Position numbers and translations under genes: made by a program
In this document: piece after piece, positions 38,074 to 52,446 of the stretch
How the letters are laid out: each line of letters starts with the position of its first letter
How positions within the stretch are numbered: the stretch's first letter is position 1
Source of the DNA: Archangium violaceum
GTDB lineage: Bacteria; Myxococcota; Myxococcia; Myxococcales; Myxococcaceae
DNA length: 64,000 nt
Direction of reading: 5' to 3'
Assembly: GCF_016887565.1 (NCBI RefSeq)
Contig: NZ_CP069396.1
Span: 3,933,001 to 3,997,000, forward strand
The notes under the pieces: generated by a model
Databases searched by the model: none
What the model was told of the DNA's origin: nothing
What the model saw: only the letters and a program-made list of their open reading frames with translations

Positions 38074-40617
38074 CTATCTCTCGTTCCCCGAATCCGGCTG
38101 GATGCGCAGACGCTCCTGATCCTCCGCGGGAGGCGCAGGCGGAGGTTGTACGGGGGGCTCCTCCGACGGCACTGGGGATACGGAACCCTCCTGCGGGGGC
38201 GGGACTTCCCCGGCCCGGGTGGGCGCCGAGCCGGCGGACGAGGGGCCGGCGGGAGCCTGGGAGCCCTCGGGCCGGATGACGCGCTCGCCCGGCAGACCGG
38301 GGCCGCCGTTCTCCACCTTGCTCTGCTCGGTGTACAGCACCTGGCGCATGCGGCTCAGCGGTCCGGCCTTGCGGGTGAAGTCCACCGGCACGTCGTAGCC
38401 GGCCACCTGCCCGTAGAACTGCTCCACGAACTGCTGCCGCTCGGCCATCTTGCGCTCGAAGATGCGCCGGAAGTCCGACTGCTCGCGGATGATGTAGGGC
38501 GTGAGGAAGAGCAGCAGGTTCGTCTTCGTCTTGCGCGTGGTGGTGTCCCGGAAGAGGTGGCCGAGCAGGGGCACGTCACCCAGGATGGGCACCTTGACGA
38601 CGGACTCGATGGTGCGGTCCTGCATGATGCCGCCGATGACCACCGTCTCCTGATCCTTCGCCACCACCGTCGTCTTGGCGCTGCGCTTGGAGGTGGTGGG
38701 ACCGAGCACCTGATCCGTCGAGGCGATCTCCTCGGTCTGCTCGGTGATGGTCATGCGGATGAAGTCGCTCTCGTTGATCTGCGGCTTGACGGTGAGCTTG
38801 AGCTCCACGTTCTGGCGGGTGATGGGGGCGTAGAGGCTGCCCAGGCCGCCCAGGGCGCCCAGCAGCGAGGAGGAGACGCCGCCGGCGGTGCCCGTGGTGC
38901 CGATGCCGGTGCCCAGCGAGGTGGGCGTGAAGCCCGACTGGAAGGGCACGTTCTGGCCCACGGTGATCTCCGCCTCCTCGTTGTCGCTGGTGAGGATGTG
39001 CGGGGTGGAGAGCACGTTGGCATCCGAGCTCTGCTGCATGGCCTGCAGCACCACGCCGAAGGCGGGGATGTCGATGCCCAGGTTCTTCAGCTCGGGGATG
39101 ACGGGGCCCTGGATGCCGGCGAGGAAGCCGCCGAAGCTGGCCAGGCTCGCCAGCGAGAAGGAGGGGGGCGTGCCGCTGGTGCTGTACTTGGTGCCGACGA
39201 TGCCCGAGCCCTGGCCGAGCGGCGTGCTCAACGAGTAGCCGGTGTGGAGGTTGAGGCCGAAGCGGTTGCTGCGGTCCAGGTTGACCTCCATGATGACCGC
39301 CTCGACGAACACCTGGCGGCGCGGCTTGTCCAGCTGCCGGATGACCCGGACGAGGCTGCGGTAGTCGCTCTGGCTGGCGATGATGACGAGCGAGTTGGTG
39401 CCCTTGTCCGCGGAGATCTTCACCTCACCGGCGAAGAGCTCGGCGGCGCTGGTGCCGCCACGGGGAGCGCCCGGGGTGGGCGGGGCCGGGATGGGGTTGC
39501 GAGGCCGGGTGGTGCTGCCCTGCGACAGCGTCTGCAGCGTGCTGGCCATCTCCTCCGCGTTGGCGTTCTCCAGCGGGTAGACGTTGATGCGCTCGGTGCC
39601 GGCGGTGGGGATGTCCAGCTCGCGCACCAGGCTCTGGATGCGCTCGAAGGCGGCGGGGCTGGCCACGACGATGAGCTTGTTGGTGCGCTCGTCGGGGATG
39701 ATCTGCGAGAAGGTCACCGGGCCGTTGGCCGAGCCCTCGGCGCCGCCGGGAGGGGGCACGCCCTCCATTCCGGGCGCGGGCTGACCGGGCATCACCGCGG
39801 GGGCACCCCGCTGGCCGGGGCGGCCACCGCCACCACTCTTCTGCTCGAAGAGCTTCTGCACCGTGCCGGCGACGTCCTGGGCGGTGGCGTACTGCACCGG
39901 GATGATGCGCACCTCGTCACTGGCCGCGCGCGAGTCGAGCTGGTCGATGAGACGCTCGAGCCGGTGCACGTTGGAGCCCACGTCGTTGATGATGATGATG
40001 TCCGGCGGGTACGGGATGGTGTCGCCGTCCTTGGACACCAGCTGCTGCAGCACGCCGCGGAGGGGCTCCACCTCCACGTTCTTGATGCGGAACAGCTTGG
40101 TGATCATCTGCTCGTTGGTGGTGTAGCTCGCGTCCGGATCCACCAGCGTGGGGATGGGGTTCTGCTTGGCGGCGCGCTTGTCGACGATCTTCAGGAAGCG
40201 CCCGTGCTGGTAGACGGACAGGCCGTTGGCGTCGAGCGCCGCGAGGAAGGCGGCGTAGAACTGGTCCGCGTCCACCTCCACCCGCCCGTTCTCCGGACCG
40301 ATGATGGAGATCTTCCCGCGCACGTTCTCCGGGAGGATGAAGGTGCGGCAGGTGGCGTCCGACACCGTCTGCACCAGCTTCTCGATGTCCACCTTGTCGA
40401 AGTAGATGCCGTAGCGGGCGCGGCGACGCACCTCCTCGCACGTGGGCGTGGGCCGCACGGTGGCGGCGCCGGCCTCGGGGCCGTTGGCGTTCTGCGGGGA
40501 GATCTGCCGATCGCCCGTATCTCCGGCGGGAGGCGGGCCAGGGCGGCGCTGCGCCAGCGCGGGCATGCTGCTCAGCCCGAGGCACAGCAGGAGCAACCAG
40601 GACGGAAGCGTCTTCAT
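38074..40617 (-). CDS. gspD: Type II secretion secretin D
   Basis: 847 residues. Signal peptide MKTLPSWLLLLCLGLSSMPALA, then N0-N3 ring domains (N1-N3 recognisable by EVRIIPVQYATA, ERINVYPLENANAEEM and IIASQSDYRSLVRVIRQLDKPRRQVFVEAVIMEV). The secretin barrel contains QNVPFQSG and VPILGDVPLLGHLF. A Pro/Glu-rich tail (about 790-847) may replace the usual pilotin-binding domain. It forms the outer-membrane channel. Starts 26 bp after gspC. Confidence 0.93.
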   Translation of the reverse strand: MKTLPSWLLLLCLGLSSMPALAQRRPGPPPAGDTGDRQISPQNANGPEAGAATVRPTPTCEEVRRRARYGIYFDKVDIEKLVQTVSDATCRTFILPENVRGKISIIGPENGRVEVDADQFYAAFLAALDANGLSVYQHGRFLKIVDKRAAKQNPIPTLVDPDASYTTNEQMITKLFRIKNVEVEPLRGVLQQLVSKDGDTIPYPPDIIIINDVGSNVHRLERLIDQLDSRAASDEVRIIPVQYATAQDVAGTVQKLFEQKSGGGGRPGQRGAPAVMPGQPAPGMEGVPPPGGAEGSANGPVTFSQIIPDERTNKLIVVASPAAFERIQSLVRELDIPTAGTERINVYPLENANAEEMASTLQTLSQGSTTRPRNPIPAPPTPGAPRGGTSAAELFAGEVKISADKGTNSLVIIASQSDYRSLVRVIRQLDKPRRQVFVEAVIMEVNLDRSNRFGLNLHTGYSLSTPLGQGSGIVGTKYSTSGTPPSFSLASLASFGGFLAGIQGPVIPELKNLGIDIPAFGVVLQAMQQSSDANVLSTPHILTSDNEEAEITVGQNVPFQSGFTPTSLGTGIGTTGTAGGVSSSLLGALGGLGSLYAPITRQNVELKLTVKPQINESDFIRMTITEQTEEIASTDQVLGPTTSKRSAKTTVVAKDQETVVIGGIMQDRTIESVVKVPILGDVPLLGHLFRDTTTRKTKTNLLLFLTPYIIREQSDFRRIFERKMAERQQFVEQFYGQVAGYDVPVDFTRKAGPLSRMRQVLYTEQSKVENGGPGLPGERVIRPEGSQAPAGPSSAGSAPTRAGEVPPPQEGSVSPVPSEEPPVQPPPAPPAEDQERLRIQPDSGNER

Positions 40618-40643
40618 GGAGGGGCGGGGTACTGCGGGTGGTG

Positions 40644-41555
40644 TTAGCGGATGGTGTAGTTCTTGCGGATGCTCGAGCCATTGCGCTCCAGCTCGATCTC
40701 GATCCGCGAGGCTTCCTTCAGCTTGGTGTAGACCTCGAGGGCCTTCTCCGGGCTGTTGAGCTCGAAGCCGTTGATGCGCTTGATGACGTCGCCGTTCTGG
40801 ACGCCGATCTTCGAGTAGATGGAGTCCGGGCGGATGGAGAAGAGCTTGAAGCCCTGCGCCTGGCCGTCCTTGAAGGCCGGCACGATGCGCGCCTGCATGG
40901 CCACGTCGTTGAGGTTGGCCAGGGTGCGGTCGATCTCCGTGCGAGGCACCTCGTAGTCGTTCTCGCTGAGGGCCTTGATGCCGTTGCCCATGCCGTTGCC
41001 GGGCGGCGGCTGCACGGGCGTGGTGACGGGCGGGGTGTAGGCGGCCACGGGCGCGGCGCCATCCCCGGGCTGGCCGTCGATGAACTCCTTGCGGCCATTG
41101 TTGAGGATGATGACGCGCTCGCGCTCGATGTCGATCACCTCGGCGCCCTGGATGCGGTCACCCACCATGTACGTGGTGGAGCGCTGGTTGTTCATGTCCT
41201 GCACCGAGGCCACCGACCACAGCTTGTCGCTGGCCACCAGGGTGCCCAGCAGCTTCACCCTCAGGCCGCTCTTCACCGGCGCGGCGTCGGGATCCACCAC
41301 GGGGGTGACGGGCTCGCTGACGATGGGGTCGGGCTCGGGCACGGCCACGCCGGTCAGGTCCGACACGCGCTTGAGATCCAGCGACGCCAACATCTCCAGG
41401 GGCTTCGCCTTCTGCGGCGCCGACACCTGGCCCGACGGCAGCGGGGTGAGGGCGGACTCCACGAACAGGTTCACCGTGCGCGCCGCCAGCAGTGCGACGA
41501 GCAGGATGAAGACCAGGTTCACGGTCCAGAAGTACTTGCGGAAGAAGAGTTCCAT
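40644..41555 (-). CDS. gspC: Type II secretion protein C
   Basis: 303 residues from ATG 41555, chosen because it opens with the usual GspC N-terminus MELFFRKYFWTVNL and membrane helix. A 16-residue longer reading from 41603 is possible, with no site visible for either. A Pro/Val linker, the homology region (LGTLVASDKLWSVASVQDM) and a C-terminal PDZ-like domain (IRPDSIYSKIGVQNGDVI) follow. GspC bridges the inner platform to the secretin. First gene of the operon; the 192 bp upstream carry a palindrome ATTCCGGAAT (41654-41663). Confidence 0.88.
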   Translation of the reverse strand: MELFFRKYFWTVNLVFILLVALLAARTVNLFVESALTPLPSGQVSAPQKAKPLEMLASLDLKRVSDLTGVAVPEPDPIVSEPVTPVVDPDAAPVKSGLRVKLLGTLVASDKLWSVASVQDMNNQRSTTYMVGDRIQGAEVIDIERERVIILNNGRKEFIDGQPGDGAAPVAAYTPPVTTPVQPPPGNGMGNGIKALSENDYEVPRTEIDRTLANLNDVAMQARIVPAFKDGQAQGFKLFSIRPDSIYSKIGVQNGDVIKRINGFELNSPEKALEVYTKLKEASRIEIELERNGSSIRKNYTIR

Positions 41556-41747
41556 CACGCGTCCAGAAAAGGCCTGCTCGGGATTGAGCAAGTGGGGTGC
41601 CATCCACGAAGGGGAGCGGGCAACCCGAGCCTTACAGCCAAGTGCTTGAAATCATTCCGGAATAAGCCAGGCCGTCCGGAGCAGGAGTCAGGGCCGCGAC
41701 GGCGTGGGACAAAATGTCAGCGGCCGGGAGGATGGCATGACGGGCTG

Positions 41748-43163
<1,416 letters not shown>

Positions 43164-43184
43164 GGTGCTGGCGCCTTGCAATCC

Positions 43185-44165
43185 CTATTCCTCGTCCTCG
43201 GCCAGCAGGGGGCCACTCATGCGGCCGAGGTCCTCGCGGTTCACCTTGTCCAGGTTGAACCGCCGGGCGCTGGAGATCATCCGGGACACGGTGGGGTCGA
43301 ACTCGGCGGTGCCCTCCTTCTTGAAGCGTAGGAAGTTGATGCGGGCCACGACGAAGTTCTTGAGGTAGGGGCTCTGCAGGCCGCGCTCCTTGAGGGAGGT
43401 CACCACGGAGGCCACGGCGTCATCCAGCTCCAGGAGCTTGTCGGCGCGGGCCTCGCGCACCCGGAGGGCCTCGGCCATGGGCAGTTCCAGGAAGGACTCC
43501 ACCCGCTTGATGAAGGGGTTGTAGGCGCCCCCGGAGAAGCGCGGCCGCTTCTCGTAGGCGGCCCCGAGGGTGAGGAAGGCGGGCTCCTCGAAGAGGTGGG
43601 CGAACTCCGACTCCCGCCCGGCGCGCGCCCCGGTGAGGCCCCGGTGCATGCGGATGACCTCGAGCGAGCGCTCCTTCAGGTTGTGCGCCTTCTCCGTGTT
43701 GAGGGCGAGGATCTGATACGCCACGTCCTCGTCGGGCAGCACCAGGGCCATGATGGACTTGCCGCCCAGCAGCTTCGAGGCCTGGAGCCGGTGGTTGCCG
43801 TTGGGCGTCCAGTACCTGCCCTCCTTGCGGATGGCGATGATGGGATCCAGGAAGCGATCCAACCGCTCCATGGCGCCCGCGAGCCGCTTCACATGGGGCT
43901 CGGAGACGTCGCGCTGGTACGGGGTGGGCTCCACCTTGTCGATGGGGAGGGCGGCGAACACCACCGTGTGCCCGCCCAGGGGGTCCCTGTAGACGCTCAG
44001 CACCTCGCCACCATCCTCCGAGATGCCTTGAATCAGCTCGGGAGACGGCATGTAGGACTCGCTGGCCACCTGCGCGGGGGTGAGACCGCGGGAGGCGGGC
44101 TCGGCCTTCTTGCGGCGGGGCCGACGGGTGGTGGTGGTTGTCTTGCGCGCTGCCTTCGCTGCCAT
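43185..44165 (-). CDS. ParB-like nuclease-domain protein
   Basis: 326 residues. A basic N-terminus (KAARKTTTTTRRPRRKKAE) is followed by a ParB/Srx-like domain with PTPYQRDVSEPHVKRLAGAM and WTPNGNHRLQASKLLG, where GNHR stands at the position of the GERR box of true ParB. The C-terminal half is helical. No helix-turn-helix of the Spo0J type is visible and no parA adjoins. It is therefore unlikely to be the chromosome-partition ParB. ParB-like proteins of this type can bind CTP or nick DNA; neither can be shown here. It leads a two-gene unit with the sigma-54 regulator. Confidence 0.78.
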   Translation of the reverse strand: MAAKAARKTTTTTRRPRRKKAEPASRGLTPAQVASESYMPSPELIQGISEDGGEVLSVYRDPLGGHTVVFAALPIDKVEPTPYQRDVSEPHVKRLAGAMERLDRFLDPIIAIRKEGRYWTPNGNHRLQASKLLGGKSIMALVLPDEDVAYQILALNTEKAHNLKERSLEVIRMHRGLTGARAGRESEFAHLFEEPAFLTLGAAYEKRPRFSGGAYNPFIKRVESFLELPMAEALRVREARADKLLELDDAVASVVTSLKERGLQSPYLKNFVVARINFLRFKKEGTAEFDPTVSRMISSARRFNLDKVNREDLGRMSGPLLAEDEE

Positions 44166-44251
44166 GGACGTCCCCCTCGTCAGGAGGCGGGGACTCTATG
44201 CCAGCCGGGCTTCGGGTCACATCCCGGATTGGGGCCGTCTGTCCTCATGGA

Positions 44252-44273
44252 CCCCTCCCACCTCCGGGGAGGG
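44252..44273 (+). promoter_or_regulatory. Hairpin in the lantibiotic leader
   Basis: Perfect eight-bp arms CCCCTCCC (44252-44259) and GGGGAGGG (44266-44273) lie 22 bases before the precursor start. The GGGGAGGG arm resembles a ribosome-binding sequence, so the stem could hide it or act as an attenuator. Confidence 0.35.
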
Positions 44274-44295
44274 CCTGAACATCGGAGCCACCGCC

Positions 44296-44556
44296 ATGAA
44301 GAAGGAAATGATCGTCCGGGCCTGGAAGGACCCCGCGTTCCGCGCCAGCCTCTCCTCCGAGGAACGCGCCTCCCTCCCCGAGAGCCCCTCTGGAGAGTCC
44401 CTGTCCGAGCTGGATGAGACCGAGTTGCGTCGGATCATCGGCGGGGCGTTGGTGAAGGATACGGGGACCCTCCCCCCGGGTACGGGCTGTACGGACGGCC
44501 GCCTCACCTGCGGTATCATCAACTGCTCGTTCACGAAGGCGGAAGCCGCCATCTGA
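44296..44556 (+). CDS. Mersacidin/lichenicidin-type (class II) lantibiotic precursor, orphan
   Basis: 86 residues. The leader has the family pattern IVRAWKDPAFRASLS, EERASLPESPSG and LDETELRRIIGG, ending in a double glycine at 49-50, the cut site of a LanT-type peptidase. The 36-residue core starts ALVKDTGTLPPGTGC and holds three Cys (65, 72, 77), with Thr and one Ser spread between them. After LanM modification it could form up to three thioether rings. No LanM, LanT or LanC gene is present in the window, so the enzymes must act from elsewhere. It is divergent from the ParB-like gene. This family is common and often unclustered in myxobacteria. The family is judged from the leader pattern, not from a search. 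Confidence 0.82.
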   Translation: MKKEMIVRAWKDPAFRASLSSEERASLPESPSGESLSELDETELRRIIGGALVKDTGTLPPGTGCTDGRLTCGIINCSFTKAEAAI

Positions 44557-44581
44557 GCGCATGAGCGTATACGCACTGGTG

Positions 44582-44606
44582 GGGGCTCGACCTGCCGCCG
44601 AGCCCC
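44582..44606. terminator. Hairpin between the lantibiotic and mbnH 3' ends
   Basis: Eight-bp arms GGGGCTCG (44582-44589) and CGAGCCCC (44599-44606) with a nine-base loop lie between convergent stops; a palindrome GCGTATACGC is at 44565-44574. No T-run, so only a possible bidirectional terminator. Confidence 0.4.
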
Positions 44607-44613
44607 GGCCGTG

Positions 44614-45753
44614 TCACTCGCCACCGAAGGGGTCGCTGAACCTCGGGTCGTTCACGAAGTCCGTGTCGGTGAGGCTCTCCAGGAAGGCGATGAGGTCGGC
44701 GCGCTCCTGGGCGCTGAGCTCGAAGGGGCGCACCAGCGGGTTCTTCAACGGGCTCGCCCGGCCGTCTCCCACGAAGGGGCCGATCGTCACGTCACGCCCA
44801 CCGGCCATGTAGAACTCCAGCACTTCCTCCAAGGTGGCCACGCTGCCGTCGTGCATGTAGGGCGCCGTGAGGGCCACGTTGCGCAGGGCCGGCACGCGGA
44901 AGCGCCCCATGTCGCGCGGGTCGCGGGTGAACTCGAAGAGGCCGGTGTTGTCCCCCGGGTAGCCGCCCTGCCCATCCACGTTGTAGAGGCCCGTGTTCTG
45001 GAAGTCCCGCTGCAGCTGCTTCGTGTCCTTCGAGCGGAAGGAGTTCGTCAAGTGCGGCCCGCTGTGGCAGTGGTAGCACTCGGCGCGCTCGGAGAAGAAC
45101 AGGTCCATGCCCCGCTTCGCGGCGCCGGACAGCGCATCGAGGTCACCCTGAAGGTAGCGGTCATAGGGTGAGCTGCCAGAGATCAACGTGCGCTGGAAGG
45201 ACGCGAGCGCCTTCACGACGTTGTCCTTGCTGACGGGGTCCTCGTCTTCCGGGAAGGCCTCGTGGAACAGGGCGGGGTAGCGCGCGTCCTCGCGCAACCG
45301 TTGGAGCACCTCGTCCAGGTGCCCGTTCACACCCAGCTCCACCGGCACCTCGCCAAAGAGCGGCACCAGCGCCTGCTTCTCCAGCGTGTCGAGCACGGGG
45401 TTGGCCCAGGTGTACGTGGCGAGCCAGGCCACATTGGCCAGGCCCGGAGAGTTGCGCGCCACGTGCTCCCCCGTGGAGCCGGTGGGCGTCGTCTTGCCGT
45501 CGCTGAAGGCCCGCTTCTGCTCGTGGCAGCTCCCGCAGGACATGGTGCCGTTGCCGGACAGGCGCTTGTCGTAGAAGAGGTAGCGGCCCAGCGTCACCTT
45601 CTCCTCGGACATGGGGTTGTCCTCGGGGACGAAGGGCTCCGGGAAGCCCGCGGGCAGTTGCCACGCGTAGGGCTTCGTCTCCGCTCCACAGGCGGCGAGG
45701 AGGAGCACCGCCAGCATCGCGATGCTCCATGCTGAGAGGGGTCGGGATGGCAT
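44614..45753 (-). CDS. mbnH: Di-haem enzyme of the MbnH / MXAN_0977 family
   Basis: 379 residues. Lipoprotein signal with lipobox LLLAACG. Two haem-c sites, CGSCH (near 75) and CYHCH (near 215), in the cytochrome-c-peroxidase/MauG fold, with MHDGSVATLEEVLEFY near the end. Established work on this pair shows that MbnH oxidises a Trp of its MbnP partner to kynurenine, creating a copper site. It starts four bases after mbnP on the same strand, exactly the known pairing. An ordinary bacterial cytochrome-c peroxidase is the alternative; the partner gene argues against it. Confidence 0.85.
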   Translation of the reverse strand: MPSRPLSAWSIAMLAVLLLAACGAETKPYAWQLPAGFPEPFVPEDNPMSEEKVTLGRYLFYDKRLSGNGTMSCGSCHEQKRAFSDGKTTPTGSTGEHVARNSPGLANVAWLATYTWANPVLDTLEKQALVPLFGEVPVELGVNGHLDEVLQRLREDARYPALFHEAFPEDEDPVSKDNVVKALASFQRTLISGSSPYDRYLQGDLDALSGAAKRGMDLFFSERAECYHCHSGPHLTNSFRSKDTKQLQRDFQNTGLYNVDGQGGYPGDNTGLFEFTRDPRDMGRFRVPALRNVALTAPYMHDGSVATLEEVLEFYMAGGRDVTIGPFVGDGRASPLKNPLVRPFELSAQERADLIAFLESLTDTDFVNDPRFSDPFGGE

Positions 45754-45757
45754 GTGC

Positions 45758-46615
45758 TCACCGGACGCGGATGAACGAGGCGGGCACGGTCTGCGCGGTG
45801 CCATCCGCCGCCAGCCCCACCTGCTCGAAGAGCGCCGGGCACTCGGGGTCGGTGGTGGACGACATGCAGCCGGCGACGAAGTCCGTCTTGTGATCGATGG
45901 TGTGATTCAGGTCCGTGTCGGCGTAGAGGGCCGCCAGGTCGAGCGCCACCTGGTTGTGCTCGGGGTTGAAGCCGCTCAGGGCCACCGTCGTCTGGTTGGA
46001 GGCGGCACAGGTATAGCCCTCGACCGTGTTGCCGGTGCAGCCGGACGCGCCCAGATGGAAGAAGAACTTGGGGTTCTTGCTCGTGCTCACGTCCAGGTGC
46101 AGGAACTTGTAGCCGTTCATCCAGCCCCACGACATGGCATCATTATTGAGTGGAGGTGGCGCCGTGGTGCCGTTCAGGTGGTTCAGTTCCTCGGGCACCC
46201 CCACCTTGAACTCCAGGCCTGTGTAGTCATCGAAGTCCGGTGCCTGGCCCACCACCTCGAAGCGCGTCTCCGGGGTGCCGGTTTCACAGGTGCCGGTGCG
46301 GTCCTCGAAGTCGAGCAGCGCGATGGCATCTCGCTGCCACGTCCCGTCCTGCTCCAATGCGAGCGCGTGCTTCTCCCCATTGGCGCGCACGAGCGTGACG
46401 TCCCTCACGTACATCTTGAAGTCGATGAGCCGCACCGTGGAGCCCGTCTTCCCGAGGCTCGGGTAGCTCGCATCGCAGCGCAGCGCCTGCTCGCCCACCT
46501 GGGGGCTGAACCTCACGGAGAACTTCTTTCCGGCGGATTCGCCTCCACAAGCCTGGAGGAGCGAGAGCGTTGAGAGCAGCAGGAGTGGCGGGAGGGGCTT
46601 CTTCGGGACCTTCAT
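45758..46615 (-). CDS. mbnP: MbnP-family (metallo-mystery pair) lipoprotein
   Basis: 285 residues. Lipobox LLQACG after MKVPKKPLPPLLLLSTLS. The mature part has FSVRFSPQVGEQALRC, the conserved Cys set (ALRC, TGTC, GASGC, YTC and GC...PEC) and MSWGWMNGYKFLHLD, whose Trp residues include the likely site of kynurenine formation by MbnH. HTIDHK near the end may add metal ligands. It probably binds copper in the periplasm or outer membrane. First gene of the pair, divergent from the FHA gene across a region with twin palindromes. Confidence 0.85.
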   Translation of the reverse strand: MKVPKKPLPPLLLLSTLSLLQACGGESAGKKFSVRFSPQVGEQALRCDASYPSLGKTGSTVRLIDFKMYVRDVTLVRANGEKHALALEQDGTWQRDAIALLDFEDRTGTCETGTPETRFEVVGQAPDFDDYTGLEFKVGVPEELNHLNGTTAPPPLNNDAMSWGWMNGYKFLHLDVSTSKNPKFFFHLGASGCTGNTVEGYTCAASNQTTVALSGFNPEHNQVALDLAALYADTDLNHTIDHKTDFVAGCMSSTTDPECPALFEQVGLAADGTAQTVPASFIRVR

Positions 46616-46766
46616 CGTGCACCTCGGGGCGTGCTGGATGTCTCCAACTCGGGAAGTGCCGCCAGCGATAGCAGGGGGCGCGCCGTCCTCCTCTGCGGCA
46701 TGGTGTCGCATCGAGGTGTGCTTCGTTGGCTACCGGGTGGACGGGATTCAGGTCTTCCCAGGGCCA

Positions 46767-46784
46767 CTTCCAGTCAACTGGAAG
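46767..46784. promoter_or_regulatory. 18-bp palindrome, operator copy 1
   Basis: CTTCCAGTCAACTGGAAG: perfect eight-bp arms around CA. It is the same element as copy 2, 54 bp away centre to centre, which places both on about the same face of the helix. Confidence 0.6.
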
Positions 46785-46820
46785 TGAAGTGTGATTTATC
46801 TTACATATTGGGTGTTCTTG

Positions 46821-46838
46821 CTTCCGGTCGACTGGAAG
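46821..46838. promoter_or_regulatory. 18-bp palindrome, operator copy 2
   Basis: CTTCCGGTCGACTGGAAG: the same arms as copy 1 with one changed base in the left arm. It and copy 1 enclose the AT-rich core of the region, as expected for a regulator that binds both and loops or covers the promoter. Confidence 0.6.
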
Positions 46839-46924
46839 TCCGCTGGGAAGCCGCCTGCTTCCGGGGGCTTGGACGCGCTTCTGTCACCCCATGCACGTTT
46901 CCCTGGTGGAACTGGCGCTCTAAG

Positions 46925-48958
46925 ATGCCGGGCCGCATGGCCCCTTCCCGCCGCCCGTCCCGCAAGCCCGCTGAGCCGTCCGAGGAGTCCGGTTCGGATC
47001 AGCAGAACACCCGTATCAAGGCCGCCAGCGCGGTCCGCCGCGGCGCTCCCCGCGAGGAGGAGGAGTACGCCGCCGAGGAGGAGAGTGACGAGGGCGACGA
47101 GGGTTCCTACGACGATCCGAGCACCGCCGAGGAATCGATGCCCTCCCTGGACGAGGAGGACGACAACCCGGACGCCACGCGCGCCGGCCCGCCCCTGAAG
47201 TTGGAGATCATCGAGGGCCCGGATCGCGGCCAGCGCAAGCGCTTCAAGAGCGTGCGCATGGTCATCGGGCGCGGGCAGGACTGCGAGCTCACGCTCACCG
47301 ATCAGTCCGTGTCGCGCCGCCACGTGGAGCTGGTGTTCGGCGGTGAGAGCGGCGTGCTGCTGCGCGACCTGGGCAGTGGCAACGGCACCAAGGTGAACGA
47401 CGAGCGCGTGGACGAGCGCAAGCTGGTCCACGAGGACGTCATCAGCCTGGGCCGGACGAAGATCCGCCTCATCGACCAGCAGGAGCTCATCAAGCGGATG
47501 CGCGCCGCCGAGGAGGAGGAGGCGCGCAAGAAGAAGGAGGCCGCCGAGCTCAAGGCCCGCCAGAAGGAGGAGGCCGCGAAGAAGGCCGCCGAGGGCGCAT
47601 CGGCCGAGGGTGCGGCAGCCGCGGGCGCGGCGGCCGAGGGTGGCGAGCCCCAGGGCAACGGCGAGGAGAACAAGAAGACACAGGTCCGCTCCGTCCATGA
47701 CATCCCGCGCCGCAATGCACCCAAACGCCGCATGGGGCTCATGGTGGCGGGAGCGCTGGTGCTCCTCATCGCCCTCCTCGGGGGCGGTGTCCTCTTCCTC
47801 AAGCGGGGCCCGCCGCCCCCGCCGCCTCCCAACCCGAAGGAGGTGCAGGCCCGGTCGCTGATGGATGACGCGCGCAAGGCCTTCCGCGCTGGCAACTACG
47901 AGGAGGCGGTGAAGCTGGCCGAGGAGGCCGAGTCCCTCTTCCCGGGCATCGACGCGGAGGGCTTCCTCCCGGTGGCACGCGCGGAGCTGGCCATCGTGCG
48001 TGCCTTCGCCCAGGTGCGCGCGCTGATGGACGAGAACAAGTTCGACGAGGCACGTGAGCTGCTGGAGCAGACGCCGCACGGCACCGCGCAGCTCACGGAG
48101 GAGATGCGCGAGAAGCTCGAGGCCGAGCTGGAGACGCGCGAGCTCGAGTACCTGGTGAAGCAGGTGGAGGCGGCGCTGGAGGCCCGCGACGTGGAGGGGG
48201 CCCGGGCGCTCATCCAGCGGTTGCCCATGGAGCAGCAGCCGCTCTACCTCGGGAAGCTGGCCGAGCTGGAGAAGCTGCTCGCCCAGGAGGCCGCCGACTC
48301 GCTGGCCAGGGACAAGGCGGCCAGGGCCGCCGCCGCCCGGCGGGCCAAGGAGCAGCGCGAGGCCTTCATCGCCGCCGCCTTCGGCGTGGTGGAGACGCGC
48401 TTCAACGCGAGCGACTTCCCCCGCGCGGTGCTCGAGTGCGACCGGGTCATCGACGCCAACCCCGGTGACAAGGAGATCCGCGAGCGGGCCAAGCTGCTCA
48501 AGAAGCTCATCCCCCAGTTCGCGCGCGTCTACCAGGACGCCCAGCGCAAGGTGCAGCAGAACGCGCTGGAGTCCGCGGCGCGTCCGCTGCGCTCGTCGGC
48601 GGAGCTGTACCGGCAGATCGGCCTCAAGGGCCCCTTCGGCGATATCATCAATGGCCAGCTCGCTGGCTCGTCGGTCGTCGCTGGCAAGGCGGCGCTCGCG
48701 CGCAACGACCTGGCCAACGCCGCCAGCTTCTTCGGCGAGGCGCTGCGCTTGCGCCCGGACGACCCCAAGGCCCAGGAGGGGATGGCCGCCATCCAGGGCA
48801 AGCTGGAGGACCTGTTCAAGCAGGCCTACTTCCAGCGGGACAGGGATCCGGAGGGCTCGGCGCAGAAGTTCCGGTTGATCCTCCAACTGGCGGCCGAGGG
48901 GTCCGAGGTGAAGACCAAGGCGCAGACGCAACTCGAGGCGCTCGAACAGCAGCCGTGA
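46925..48958 (+). CDS. FHA-domain protein with membrane helix and TPR-like C-terminus
   Basis: 677 residues from ATG 46925 (ATG 46937 is an alternative; no clear site). The N-terminal ~85 residues are acidic and disordered. The FHA domain (about 90-180) has VIGRGQDCEL, SVSRRHVEL and GSGNGTKVN, all phosphothreonine-binding residues intact. A Lys/Glu/Ala coiled coil follows, then a membrane helix (LMVAGALVLLIALLGGGVLFL, about 275-295), a Pro run and a long TPR-like periplasmic part. It could carry a Ser/Thr kinase signal across the membrane. The next gene (cyclic-nucleotide-binding) follows after 42 bp on the same strand. Confidence 0.85.
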   Translation: MPGRMAPSRRPSRKPAEPSEESGSDQQNTRIKAASAVRRGAPREEEEYAAEEESDEGDEGSYDDPSTAEESMPSLDEEDDNPDATRAGPPLKLEIIEGPDRGQRKRFKSVRMVIGRGQDCELTLTDQSVSRRHVELVFGGESGVLLRDLGSGNGTKVNDERVDERKLVHEDVISLGRTKIRLIDQQELIKRMRAAEEEEARKKKEAAELKARQKEEAAKKAAEGASAEGAAAAGAAAEGGEPQGNGEENKKTQVRSVHDIPRRNAPKRRMGLMVAGALVLLIALLGGGVLFLKRGPPPPPPPNPKEVQARSLMDDARKAFRAGNYEEAVKLAEEAESLFPGIDAEGFLPVARAELAIVRAFAQVRALMDENKFDEARELLEQTPHGTAQLTEEMREKLEAELETRELEYLVKQVEAALEARDVEGARALIQRLPMEQQPLYLGKLAELEKLLAQEAADSLARDKAARAAAARRAKEQREAFIAAAFGVVETRFNASDFPRAVLECDRVIDANPGDKEIRERAKLLKKLIPQFARVYQDAQRKVQQNALESAARPLRSSAELYRQIGLKGPFGDIINGQLAGSSVVAGKAALARNDLANAASFFGEALRLRPDDPKAQEGMAAIQGKLEDLFKQAYFQRDRDPEGSAQKFRLILQLAAEGSEVKTKAQTQLEALEQQP

Positions 48959-49000
48959 TGGGGTAGGGTCAGCCCCCCAACAGGTTCGTGGAGGAGTGGG

Positions 49001-50338
49001 ATGAACGAGTCATCTTTGCGGGAACTGGGGCTGGACCTCCTGGAGGACCGCCAGTTCGAACGGGCCCTCGCGGTGTTCGCCGAGGCGGTGCGCCGGGTTC
49101 CCGCGGATCACCGCTCGCGGATGATGGCCGCGCGGTGTCTGGTGGAGCTGGGAGAGCGCGAGCGGGCCGTCACGGTCTACCACGCGTGTGCCGAGGGTCT
49201 GCTGCGGCGTGACTACCTGCTGTCCGCCATGGCGGCGTGCAAGCTGGGCCTGGCCCTGGCGCCCCAGGAGAAGCGGCTGCGCGAGACGCTGGTGCGCCTG
49301 CATGCCCGCGCGGCGCGCAACGTGGCCAAACGCGCCTCGGTGCCCCCGCCGCTGCCCCCGGAGACGCTCTATGACGGCAAGGTGGACACGGACCTGATGG
49401 CCCTGTCCGGCGAGGAGCTGAGCGACCGCGCCATCGAGGTGCTCGCCGCGCCGGACCCCGGTGGAGCCGCCAACCCGAACGACCGGCCGCCCCTGCCGCT
49501 CTTCGCGGACCTGGAGCGCGATGCCTTCATCGAGCTGGTCATCCGCATGGGCTACCGCTCCGTCAAGCCCGAGGAGGCGGTGAGCACCGAGGGCGGGACC
49601 CTGGATGGGCTGAACGTCATCGTCGCCGGCAAGGCGGAGGTGACGCGGCGGGTGGAGGGCGAGGATCGGACGCTGGGCTTCCTCGGAGGCGGCTCCATCT
49701 TCGGTGAGCTGTCGCTGCTCACCGGCGCTCCGCCGACGGCCACCGTCACCGCCGTGTCCGACATGGAGGTGTTCGAGCTGCGCCGCGAGCACCTCAACGC
49801 GGTGGCCAAGAACTTCCCCTCGGTGCCGCAGGTGCTGGCCACCTTCGCGCAGAAGCGCATGGAGCGGAACCTGACGGCCACCTCGCCGCTGTTCCAGCCC
49901 ATGCCCGAGTCCGAGCGTGACGCGCTCCTGCAGCGCTTCGCGTTCCGCTCGCTGCAACCCGGGGAGAAGGTGCTCATCGAGGGGGAGCACTCCTCGGGCC
50001 TCTTCCTGGTGCTCGCGGGCGAGCTGGTGGTGCAGAAGGACGATCCCGCCGGCGGCACCGTGCGTCTGGGCGTGCTGCGAGAGGGCGAGGTGGCGGGGGA
50101 GATCTCCCTCCTCACCGGCCTGCGCGCCACGGCCACCGTGGTGTCGCTGCGCAAGACGGCGACGGCCTTCCTCGAGCGCGCCTCCTTCAACGAGCTGGTG
50201 AAGACGTACCCTCACATCAAGAAGTACCTGGAGCAGCTCTCGGATCGCCGGCTGAAGCAGATTGGCGAGGCGCTGCGGCCCTCGGAGATCATCGACGCGG
50301 ACGAGCTGTTGATGGAGAGCGAAGGCACGACGGCCTGA
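49001..50338 (+). CDS. TPR protein with two cyclic-nucleotide-binding domains
   Basis: 445 residues. N-terminal TPR-like repeats (about 5-115: LLEDRQFERALAVFAEAVRRVPAD) are followed by two cNMP-binding domains, about 170-290 (GGGSIFGELSLLTG) and 300-420 (GEVAGEISLLTG). The phosphate-binding cassette of each lacks the usual RAA arginine: the first reads GAPPTAT, the second GLRATAT. Whether either binds cAMP or cGMP is therefore uncertain. There is no helix-turn-helix, so this is not a CRP-type regulator. It is probably a scaffold or effector in the same unit as the FHA gene and the following small membrane protein. Confidence 0.85.
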   Translation: MNESSLRELGLDLLEDRQFERALAVFAEAVRRVPADHRSRMMAARCLVELGERERAVTVYHACAEGLLRRDYLLSAMAACKLGLALAPQEKRLRETLVRLHARAARNVAKRASVPPPLPPETLYDGKVDTDLMALSGEELSDRAIEVLAAPDPGGAANPNDRPPLPLFADLERDAFIELVIRMGYRSVKPEEAVSTEGGTLDGLNVIVAGKAEVTRRVEGEDRTLGFLGGGSIFGELSLLTGAPPTATVTAVSDMEVFELRREHLNAVAKNFPSVPQVLATFAQKRMERNLTATSPLFQPMPESERDALLQRFAFRSLQPGEKVLIEGEHSSGLFLVLAGELVVQKDDPAGGTVRLGVLREGEVAGEISLLTGLRATATVVSLRKTATAFLERASFNELVKTYPHIKKYLEQLSDRRLKQIGEALRPSEIIDADELLMESEGTTA

Positions 50339-50351
50339 GGCCTGGGAGCGG

Positions 50352-50846
50352 ATGATGACGCTGTCGAGAGGGCACGTGCTGGGGTTGGTGCTGGCGCTGC
50401 TGGCCGCGGGGGCGGTGCTGGCCTTGTGGCCCCAGGCGGAGCCCGGGGTGAAGGACGCCATCACGCGCAAGGTGGTGCAGATGACGGCCGCCGCCGAGCG
50501 CAAGGACATGGCCGAGCTGATGGACGGCGTCTCCGACAGCTTCCGCTCGGGCGAGGGATGGAACAAGCAGCAGCTCAAGGGCGTGCTGCTGGGCCAGGTG
50601 CTGCGGGGCAGCTGGGTCCGGGTCTTCGTGCGCGACCTGCATGTCACCGAGGTGAACCCCACGCGCGGTGACGTGCAGGTGAAGATCATCTTCGGCCGCT
50701 CGGAGGCCGAGCAGCTCGAGCAGCTCGCCCAGGACAGTGTGCTGAGCGCCTACCTCATCGAGGGCACCTTCGAGAAGCAGGACGACGGCGAGTGGCGGGT
50801 GGTGCAGGCGAAGCACCGCTCGCTGAGTCCCACCGAGCTCTTCTGA
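50352..50846 (+). CDS. Membrane-anchored small protein of unknown function
   Basis: 164 residues. An N-terminal hydrophobic helix (VLGLVLALLAAGAVLALW) is followed by a ~130-residue domain with helix-then-strand order and a final GEWRVVQAKH strand, the pattern of NTF2/SnoaL-like folds. No catalytic residues are evident. It starts 13 bp after the cyclic-nucleotide-binding gene and converges with the TPR gene at 50851, so it ends the FHA operon. Confidence 0.7.
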   Translation: MMTLSRGHVLGLVLALLAAGAVLALWPQAEPGVKDAITRKVVQMTAAAERKDMAELMDGVSDSFRSGEGWNKQQLKGVLLGQVLRGSWVRVFVRDLHVTEVNPTRGDVQVKIIFGRSEAEQLEQLAQDSVLSAYLIEGTFEKQDDGEWRVVQAKHRSLSPTELF

Positions 50847-50850
50847 GTCT

Positions 50851-52446
50851 CTACTGGAGCAGCGCCTCGGCCTCGGTCCTCCAGGCCTTGGCGATGCTGG
50901 ACTGGCCCGCGTCCACCAGGCGCTTCTCCACGTCCGAGACCTTCTCCTTCAGCGTCTCCCTGGGCATGCCCTGGAGCCGGGAGCGGCTCATCCCGAGGAA
51001 GTAGCTCTGGCAGCCATTGGCGAACTCGCCCTTGGCGAAGAGCAGGTCTCCCAGCGCCTCGTAGGCCTCGGGCATGCTGCCCATGCCGTTCTCCGGCGCC
51101 ACCTCCACCAGCAGCGGCCGGGCGGCGTCATAGTCCTTGCGCGCCATCAGCAGCGACGCCTTCGCGTACTGCGCGCGCGCCATGCTCACGCCCCTCACCG
51201 CCAGGGCCCGGTCATACGCCGTCATCGCGTCGTCCGTGCGCGACAGTGCCTCCAGCACCCGGCCTCGCGCCAGCCAGTAGCGATCGTCCCGCTCCAGCGC
51301 CGCCACCGTCTTGCCCTCGGGCGCCGGCACCTGGACGTCGCGGAAGACGGCCTCGTACCCATCCAGCAACGCCAGCGCGCCCTCGCCATCCCCCGCCTGT
51401 TGCAGCGCTGGCGCACCGTCCAGATAGAGCAGGGGGGCCGTCCGCCGCTTCGCCACCGCCTCCTGGAAGGCCGCGCGAGCCCCCGGATCCTTGTTCAGCG
51501 CCAGCGCCCGCGCGCGGATGAAGAGGGCATGGTGCTCGTCCGGTGACGTGGCGAGCGCCTCCTCCGCGTCCTTCCGGGCCTCGTCCGTGCGCCCCTCGGC
51601 CAGCGCGAGCGCCGCTCGCACCGCACCTGCCCGGGCCTTCAGCGCCGGGGTGAGCTCGGCCTCGCGGGCCTTCATGTCGGACACCGTCTTCGCCGCCTCG
51701 TCCCGTCCCCCGCCCTGGTACAGCCGCGCGAGCGCCAGCGACAGCCGGGCGCGCAGGTGGTCCGGATTGGCCGACGTGGCCTTCTTCAGCGCCTCGGCGG
51801 CCTGGGCGTACATGCCCTCGTCGAGCAGGGCCTCGCCATGGGCCACGGAGTAGCGCGGCTCCCGCCACGCCGTCTCACTGGCCCGCGCGAAGGCCTGCCT
51901 CGCGTCCGACAGCCGCCCGCGCGCCAGCAGCGTCTGGGCCTCGGCGAGCGCCAGCTTGGGGCTCTTGGCGCCCTGCGTCTTCAATTCCTCCAGATACTTC
52001 TCCGCCTCCGTGGCCTTGCCCTCGGCCACCAGCAGCATCGCCCGCGCGCCGTAGCGCTCGCCCGAGCGCGAGTCCAACGCCTCCGCGCGCGCCAGGTGCT
52101 CCCGGGCCCGGGCCTCCGCCTCGGGCTGGCGGTGCTCCAGCCACAGCCGTGTGTTCACCTCGGCCGCCAGCGCCTGGGCGTCCCGCGCGTCCCCGTCCAA
52201 TTGGAAGAGGGCCTCCAGCTCCGCCAGGGCCTTGCTCAGGTCCGCCGGGTTGTCGCGCTGGACCAGCGTCCGCGCCGCCTTCATCCGCGTGTCCACCTGC
52301 TGCCGCACCGAGCCCCGGTGCACCACGTACGCCACCGCGCCCGCCAGCAGCACGGCCACCACTCCCACCTGGAGGAGCGCGCTGGGCAGACTCTCCCGCC
52401 TCCGCCAGTCCCTCTGTCCGCCGTGGTTTCCGTCGGTCGCGGCCAT
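50851..52446 (-). CDS. Membrane-anchored TPR protein
   Basis: 531 residues. A short cytoplasmic N-terminus and one membrane helix (LLQVGVVAVLLAGAVAYVV, about 24-42) are followed by a long run of TPR repeats (for example KALAELEALFQLDG, KATEAEKYLEELKTQG, ALLDEGMYAQAAEALKKA). It probably acts as a periplasmic scaffold. It is divergent from thrB; the palindrome GGAGGCGCCTCC just before its start contains its ribosome-binding site. Confidence 0.8.
   Translation of the reverse strand: MAATDGNHGGQRDWRRRESLPSALLQVGVVAVLLAGAVAYVVHRGSVRQQVDTRMKAARTLVQRDNPADLSKALAELEALFQLDGDARDAQALAAEVNTRLWLEHRQPEAEARAREHLARAEALDSRSGERYGARAMLLVAEGKATEAEKYLEELKTQGAKSPKLALAEAQTLLARGRLSDARQAFARASETAWREPRYSVAHGEALLDEGMYAQAAEALKKATSANPDHLRARLSLALARLYQGGGRDEAAKTVSDMKAREAELTPALKARAGAVRAALALAEGRTDEARKDAEEALATSPDEHHALFIRARALALNKDPGARAAFQEAVAKRRTAPLLYLDGAPALQQAGDGEGALALLDGYEAVFRDVQVPAPEGKTVAALERDDRYWLARGRVLEALSRTDDAMTAYDRALAVRGVSMARAQYAKASLLMARKDYDAARPLLVEVAPENGMGSMPEAYEALGDLLFAKGEFANGCQSYFLGMSRSRLQGMPRETLKEKVSDVEKRLVDAGQSSIAKAWRTEAEALLQ

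Follow-up and report, generated by a model that had tools for sequence, protein, structure and literature searches.

A stand-alone class II lanthipeptide precursor gene in Archangium and a candidate synthetase encoded about 4 Mb away

The P1 locus

The window is the entire 64-kb stretch of DNA that was analyzed, and it corresponds to C1:3933001-3997000 of the Archangium genome G000, which consists of 13,213,980 bases in a single contig. The gene of interest, P1, is an open reading frame (ORF) of 86 amino acids plus a stop codon on the forward strand. The features of the locus, in window positions, are as follows.

43185..44165, - strand: left neighbor, a conserved uncharacterized protein without a Pfam match at 1e-5, which marks the syntenic place in relatives
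44284..44287, + strand: GGAG, ribosome-binding-site-like, 8 nt 5' of the ATG (direct reading; identical in sister genome G005)
44296..44556, + strand: P1, stand-alone class II lanthipeptide precursor gene (ORF; TIGR03898, E=2.3e-19)
44296..44445, + strand: leader, residues 1-50, to Gly49-Gly50, the predicted C39 cleavage site (TIGR03898 match at residues 6-50; paralogue nucleotide similarity ends at or near this boundary)
44446..44553, + strand: core, 36 residues, ALVKDTGTLPPGTGCTDGRLTCGIINCSFTKAEAAI; T63, C65, T71 and C72 are invariant in the ten-member core family
44582..44606, + strand: G+C-rich perfect hairpin of 8 bp 3' of P1, terminator-like without a T-run (fold z=-2.57)
44614..45804, - strand: right neighbor, a di-heme cytochrome c peroxidase (CCP_MauG, by Pfam), convergent with P1

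The NCBIfam model TIGR03898, which describes the mersacidin/lichenicidin family of type 2 lantibiotics, matched residues 6-50 of P1 (E=2.3e-19) with a score of 69.1 bits, the cut-off being 23.5. The leader ends at Gly49-Gly50, and the core of 36 residues contains three Cys and seven Ser/Thr residues. A preliminary description of this DNA had proposed a class II precursor with these same features, and the profile score bears it out. The Pfam model for mersacidin (PF16934) gave P1 11.7 bits, far under its cut-off of 27.6. A weak match to a nitrile-hydratase Pfam model was disregarded; Pfam alone was uninformative and the family was set by NCBIfam. No Nif11 model appeared among the P1 matches, which were listed to E=10 for both Pfam and NCBIfam. 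The core also lacks TxTxEC, which is given as the lipid-II motif of mersacidin in PMC7268733, and its sole Glu, E83, lies past the last Cys. The term "mersacidin-type" in the preliminary description is therefore apt for the leader and not for the core, whose counterpart is the core of a precursor located beside the LanM M1 (see below). Judged by its sequence, P1 is a class II lanthipeptide precursor by its leader and is not a mersacidin by its core.

The hairpin located 3' of P1 was also compared with the sister genome G005, where the stem is kept, the loop is changed and the corresponding stretch has z=-3.09. Naming this hairpin a terminator was rejected because it has no T-run.

The Pfam analysis of ten neighboring genes (38,074-52,446) identified T2SS parts, a sigma-54 regulator, the di-heme peroxidase, MbnP, and FHA/TPR and cNMP-binding proteins, and two of the ten had no match. 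MbnP follows the CCP_MauG peroxidase beside P1 (window 44614-46711). CCP_MauG is also present in the Archangium genome G003, which is without P1, and so no link between the peroxidase/MbnP genes and P1 is claimed. The preliminary description had stated that no LanM lies nearby, and this was correct. All four PF13575 (LanM) matches of G000 are located outside the window, the nearest domain being 377,672 bp from P1, and the six C39-peptidase matches of G000 likewise all fall outside the window, which extends only 19.4 kb to the right of P1.

Precursors and LanMs in Archangium and its relatives

The preliminary description had proposed a whole-genome search for LanM and for related precursors, and its reading depended on a LanM being found and on the leader matching the mersacidin-family profile. 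The leader passes that profile, and the profile searches of G000 identified four LanMs (PF13575) and nine TIGR03898 precursors over the cut-off. The precursor counts given here are lower bounds because the first-look candidates were partially scored (for example, 150 of 232 in the G000 search and 65 of 167 for G000 in the survey below); three separate searches of G000 all gave nine precursors above the cut-off. Six of the nine precursors, P1 included, are stand-alone genes whose nearest LanM is 81 kb to 1.3 Mb away (approximately 378 kb for P1). Thus, P1 is an orphan in that it has no LanM in cis, but it is not a lone gene, since it is one of nine related precursors in its genome.

The M1 locus of G000 is complete and contains two HlyD genes, a C39-peptidase ABC transporter, the precursors P2 and P3 and the LanM M1 at 7,971,614, about 4 Mb distant from P1. 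The LanM nearest to P1 is a second one at 4,355,225, which is adjoined by the precursor P9. The LanM-like genes at C1:878754-879881 and C1:3502201-3503343 have no adjoining TIGR03898 precursor. The latter matches the LanC model at positions 2-116 of 350 only, and the usual zinc motif is absent by pattern. No gene was found to recur at P1 when ORFs of at least 100 amino acids were compared among the six orphan loci of G000 and the M1 and M2 loci. The matches between these loci were precursors, antisense frames over precursors or LanM, LanM itself and two others at 33-34% identity (P5/P6 and M2/P4 loci).

Two further observations concern the other precursors of G000. First, C1:11826256-11826294 holds a truncated precursor remnant, in which a leader start like that of orphan 232096 is followed by a Cys-containing sequence without Gly-Gly. 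Secondly, the motif D[AN]CPSALxC, or a close form of it, recurs in otherwise differing orphan cores at C1:4274166, 6671022 and 7323545 and in their relatives in G001, G002, G003 and G005, and it is distinct from the P1 motif. The 4274166-type orphan was found in four Archangium genomes (G000-G003). The sequence CPTxxC forms the end of the beta peptides of two-component lantibiotics. A two-component alpha/beta reading, in which P4, P7 and P8 share D[AN]CPSALxC, recalling CPTxxC, was dropped; P1 has neither D[AN]CPSALxC nor TxTxEC.

The genome of A. lansinium MIWBW (G001) contains one LanM, which is M1-type, and 13 precursors, 12 of which were identified by TIGR03898. Four of these precursors are within 10 kb of the LanM and nine are at 0.55-6.7 Mb. 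Three of the nine distant precursors look damaged: one has no core Cys, one has no N-terminus and one has no ATG at the expected place. Stand-alone LanC-like proteins also occur in A. lansinium but are not LanMs. The single LanM must serve the orphans of this genome if these are class II lanthipeptides.

In the family survey, TIGR03898 precursors were identified in 36 of 96 genomes. A LanM was designated M1-type if it was at least 65% identical to M1, a threshold placed where the identities jump from 58% to 65%. Among the 11 genomes with an M1-type LanM, 36 of 69 precursors were orphans (A. lansinium being counted with its 12 TIGR03898 precursors), and orphans were present in 10 of these genomes. 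Of the 50 precursors in the remaining 25 genomes, four were orphans. The Mann-Whitney comparison of orphans in genomes with and without an M1-type LanM gave p=2.4e-6, a value that ignores the relatedness of the genomes. Some of the M1 genomes are drafts, in which an orphan may simply have been severed from its LanM by a contig end; among the M1 genomes of no more than two contigs (G000, G001, G002, G082 and G083), 19 of 31 precursors were orphans. One M1 genome, G086, which matches Hyalangium versicolor H56D21, is outside Archangium.

Orphans and M1-type LanMs do not always occur together. The draft genome of A. violaceum Cb vi76 (G004; 430 contigs) has an M1-type LanM and no orphan. The four orphans in non-M1 genomes are in G068 and G070 (drafts of 960 and 1240 contigs), G110 and the Archangium genome G003. 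G003 is a single contig, in which an intact-looking M1-type orphan was identified at C1:4665007-4665192 and no M1-type LanM was found. Thus, orphans can outlive M1 or do without it, and the persistence of an orphan is by itself no proof of its use. In genus g26, five genomes whose LanMs share 54-55% identity with M1 contain six precursors and zero orphans, and dispersal is therefore confined to the closest relatives of M1.

The candidate enzyme for P1 and the alternatives

P1 is 68% (residues 1-80) and 64% (residues 1-77) identical to two precursors adjacent to M1, and its core is homologous to the core of one of the two. In an alignment of ten P1-like cores, T63, G64, C65, T71, C72, G73 and I74 are invariant. 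The invariant Thr and Cys residues restrict the ring topology without fixing it, and no topology was therefore assigned. Six of the ten P1-like precursors lie less than 1 kb from an M1-type LanM (one per genome in six genomes), one lies at 5.2 kb and three are orphans. Leader length distinguishes the LanM types. The distance from LP to GG is 20 in all 14 precursors beside M1-type LanMs, in none of the 12 beside other LanMs and in 28 of 29 orphans as counted by script, or 27 of 29 if the GGGG run in G001:11736408 is given its better reading of 18. In a tree of 25 LanMs (25 of the 29 PF13575 matches, four partial ones being omitted), the six M1-type LanMs form one clade with 100/100 support, and all six have the zinc motifs WCHG and LCHG.

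These comparisons point to LanM M1 as the best candidate enzyme for P1. We consider it probable that P1, which stands alone, is functional and supplies a substrate to a class II lanthipeptide pathway with enzyme genes about 4 Mb distant. The preliminary description had suggested that a distant LanM may act in trans, and the M1 locus, the shared leader type and the homologous core make this the explanation that best fits the data. By this route, M1 would bind the conserved leader of P1, dehydrate T63 and T71 and join them to Cys, most likely C65 and C72. The product would contain two (methyl)lanthionine rings, and C77 might remain free. The C39 transporter of the M1 locus would then cut after Gly50 and export the core. 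P1 would thus be one member of a dispersed precursor set with a constant leader cassette and changing cores.

The first alternative is that P1 is a relic, that is, a duplicated precursor that was stranded away from its cluster and is drifting. Decay does occur among related genes: among 29 orphan cores, four retain at most one Cys (three of these have none), one precursor adjacent to M1 has none, one orphan has no N-terminus, one has no ATG at the expected place, and the truncated leader at G000:C1:11826256 is a remnant. However, an orthologue of P1, 86% identical, is present at the same place in the sister genome G005, and the P1 ORF is therefore not a chance one. G005 retains the ATG, the ribosome-binding-site-like sequence, the reading frame, the GG, all three Cys and the invariant Thr residues, as well as the stem of the downstream hairpin, and the sole coding indel between the two genes is one codon. 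Over 86 codons dN is 0.076 and dS is 0.196 (one-sided p=0.02), so that dN is 0.39 of dS. The same one-sided test gave p=0.03 for the leader alone and p=0.25, which is not significant, for the core alone. A relic, which the preliminary description had offered as its other possibility, is thus unlikely for P1, because a sister species retains the gene at the same position and dN between the two copies is below dS, even though some sister orphans look decayed.

The site of P1 was also examined in other relatives. In G003 the two genes that flank P1 are approximately 60 bp apart with no precursor between them, and the gap in the window is 448 bp. No P1-like sequence was found in the roughly 10 kb around the left neighbor in G001, G002, G004, G018, G027 and G032, where the peroxidase does not adjoin. 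An insertion in the G000/G005 line or a loss elsewhere would produce the same pattern.

The second alternative is that P1 is modified in trans by one of the three further LanMs of G000 (4355225, 878754 or 3502201) and not by M1. These enzymes exist, and 4355225 is nearer to P1 than any other LanM, at about 378 kb. However, 4355225 is adjoined by a precursor with a shorter leader (LP-GG of 18) and an unrelated core that is conserved in three genomes. In addition, A. lansinium has 13 precursors although none of these three LanMs was found there, and across the family the orphans track the presence of an M1-type LanM. This alternative is very improbable. It is less likely still that P1 loses its leader and leaves the cell as an unmodified double-glycine peptide without lanthionine rings: P1 has weak matches, below the cut-off, to the Bacteriocin_IIc and ComC double-glycine leaders and G000 has C39 matches besides that of M1, but the class II lanthipeptide leader model matches P1 far more strongly, and the invariant Thr/Cys pattern of the core is the one expected where rings form.

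Leader cassettes and comparison with known systems

The nucleotide identity of paralogous precursors was calculated from 830 pairs. These came from 42 precursors out of 43 rows, the remaining row having no GG in range, and pairs judged by eye to be orthologous were excluded. Mean identity was 0.57-0.77 in the leader segments, 0.32 in the first codon past GG and approximately 0.30 thereafter; the profile is ungapped, which lowers the values deep in the cores but not that of the first codon after GG. Upstream, the final 15 nt ahead of the ATG had an identity of 0.39, and positions beyond 30 nt had approximately 0.28. Paralogue similarity falls to chance at Gly-Gly. Identity is high in the leader and is lost both past GG and upstream, and thus the constant unit consists of the leader and the ribosome-binding site, while the cores differ. 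Some precursor subfamilies share longer 5' stretches of approximately 80 nt. The tandem precursors at G005:C3:277180 and 277893 share 94.6% identity over a stretch that starts about 110 nt upstream and ends 18 nt beyond the Gly-Gly codons. Their cores differ past this shared stretch, and one has no Cys, which makes the pair a fresh case of core change.

We tentatively propose, with somewhat less than even confidence, that Archangium and its relatives contain an independently evolved prochlorosin-like system. One LanM with a CHG site, encoded in a complete export locus, would serve stand-alone precursors that are scattered over the genome and turn over quickly. The mobile unit would be a cassette of about 170 bp, consisting of the ribosome-binding site and the leader, that is set before unrelated DNA. 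New cores would thus be born and die at dispersed sites while the enzyme remains unchanged.

The results are of interest for several reasons. First, mining for precursors beside a LanM misses stand-alone ones like P1, and in the 11 M1-type genomes roughly half of them (36 of 69 precursors) lie away from any LanM found. Secondly, a CCG zinc site has been proposed to contribute to the substrate tolerance of LanMs (PMC10783134), and if M1 accepts the orphan cores, tolerance of many substrates would be possible without a CCG site. Lastly, the gain of new cores by leader cassettes can be studied here in a second lineage that uses another leader family, and in soil bacteria, where the roles of the products are testable.

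Three known systems can be compared with P1. The mersacidin/lichenicidin family shares with P1 a leader that passes the TIGR03898 cut-off and the double-glycine end. It differs in that the P1 core is without TxTxEC and P1 has no LanM or C39 transporter in cis.

The second system is LanII-2B of Archangium violaceum. According to PMC9576775, LanII-2B was produced heterologously from a refactored cluster and has two dehydrations, two ringed Cys and a free third Cys. One LanM and one TIGR03898 precursor (C203:14938) were found in A. violaceum Cb vi76. The core of this precursor has three Cys, the third shifted by one position relative to the rest of the core family. LanII-2B is probably the product of this precursor and its M1-type LanM, as judged from the species, the LanM count and the Cys count. 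LanII-2B comes from the same genus as P1, and its two dehydrations and two ringed Cys agree in number with the pairs of invariant Thr and Cys in the P1 core family. However, LanII-2B comes from a cluster with its own synthetase, whereas P1 is far from any LanM. By analogy with LanII-2B, the P1 core should lose two waters, which would lower its calculated monoisotopic [M+H]+ by 36.02, from 3594.80 for the unmodified core to 3558.78, and further Ser/Thr residues could also react.

The third system is that of the prochlorosins (ProcM) and synechococcins (SyncM) of marine picocyanobacteria, in which one promiscuous LanM serves many precursors with a conserved leader and variable cores, and many of the precursor genes are distant (PMC7268733 and PMC10783134). 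Among the matches listed from the open-access literature, no titles or abstract openings reported dispersed precursors in myxobacteria. The P1 set is like the prochlorosins in its constant leader and changing cores and in having precursors far from a single LanM, as for the nine of 13 in A. lansinium that lie more than 500 kb away. The ProcM and SyncM systems have Nif11-type leaders and CCG-motif LanMs, with up to 83 precursors in one Synechococcus strain (PMC10783134). Unlike these, the P1 set has TIGR03898 leaders and the six M1-clade LanMs of the tree have CHG sites, and the Archangium sets are smaller, with 1-14 precursors found per genome. Thus, the arrangement of P1 resembles that of the prochlorosins, but P1 is not a member of that system.
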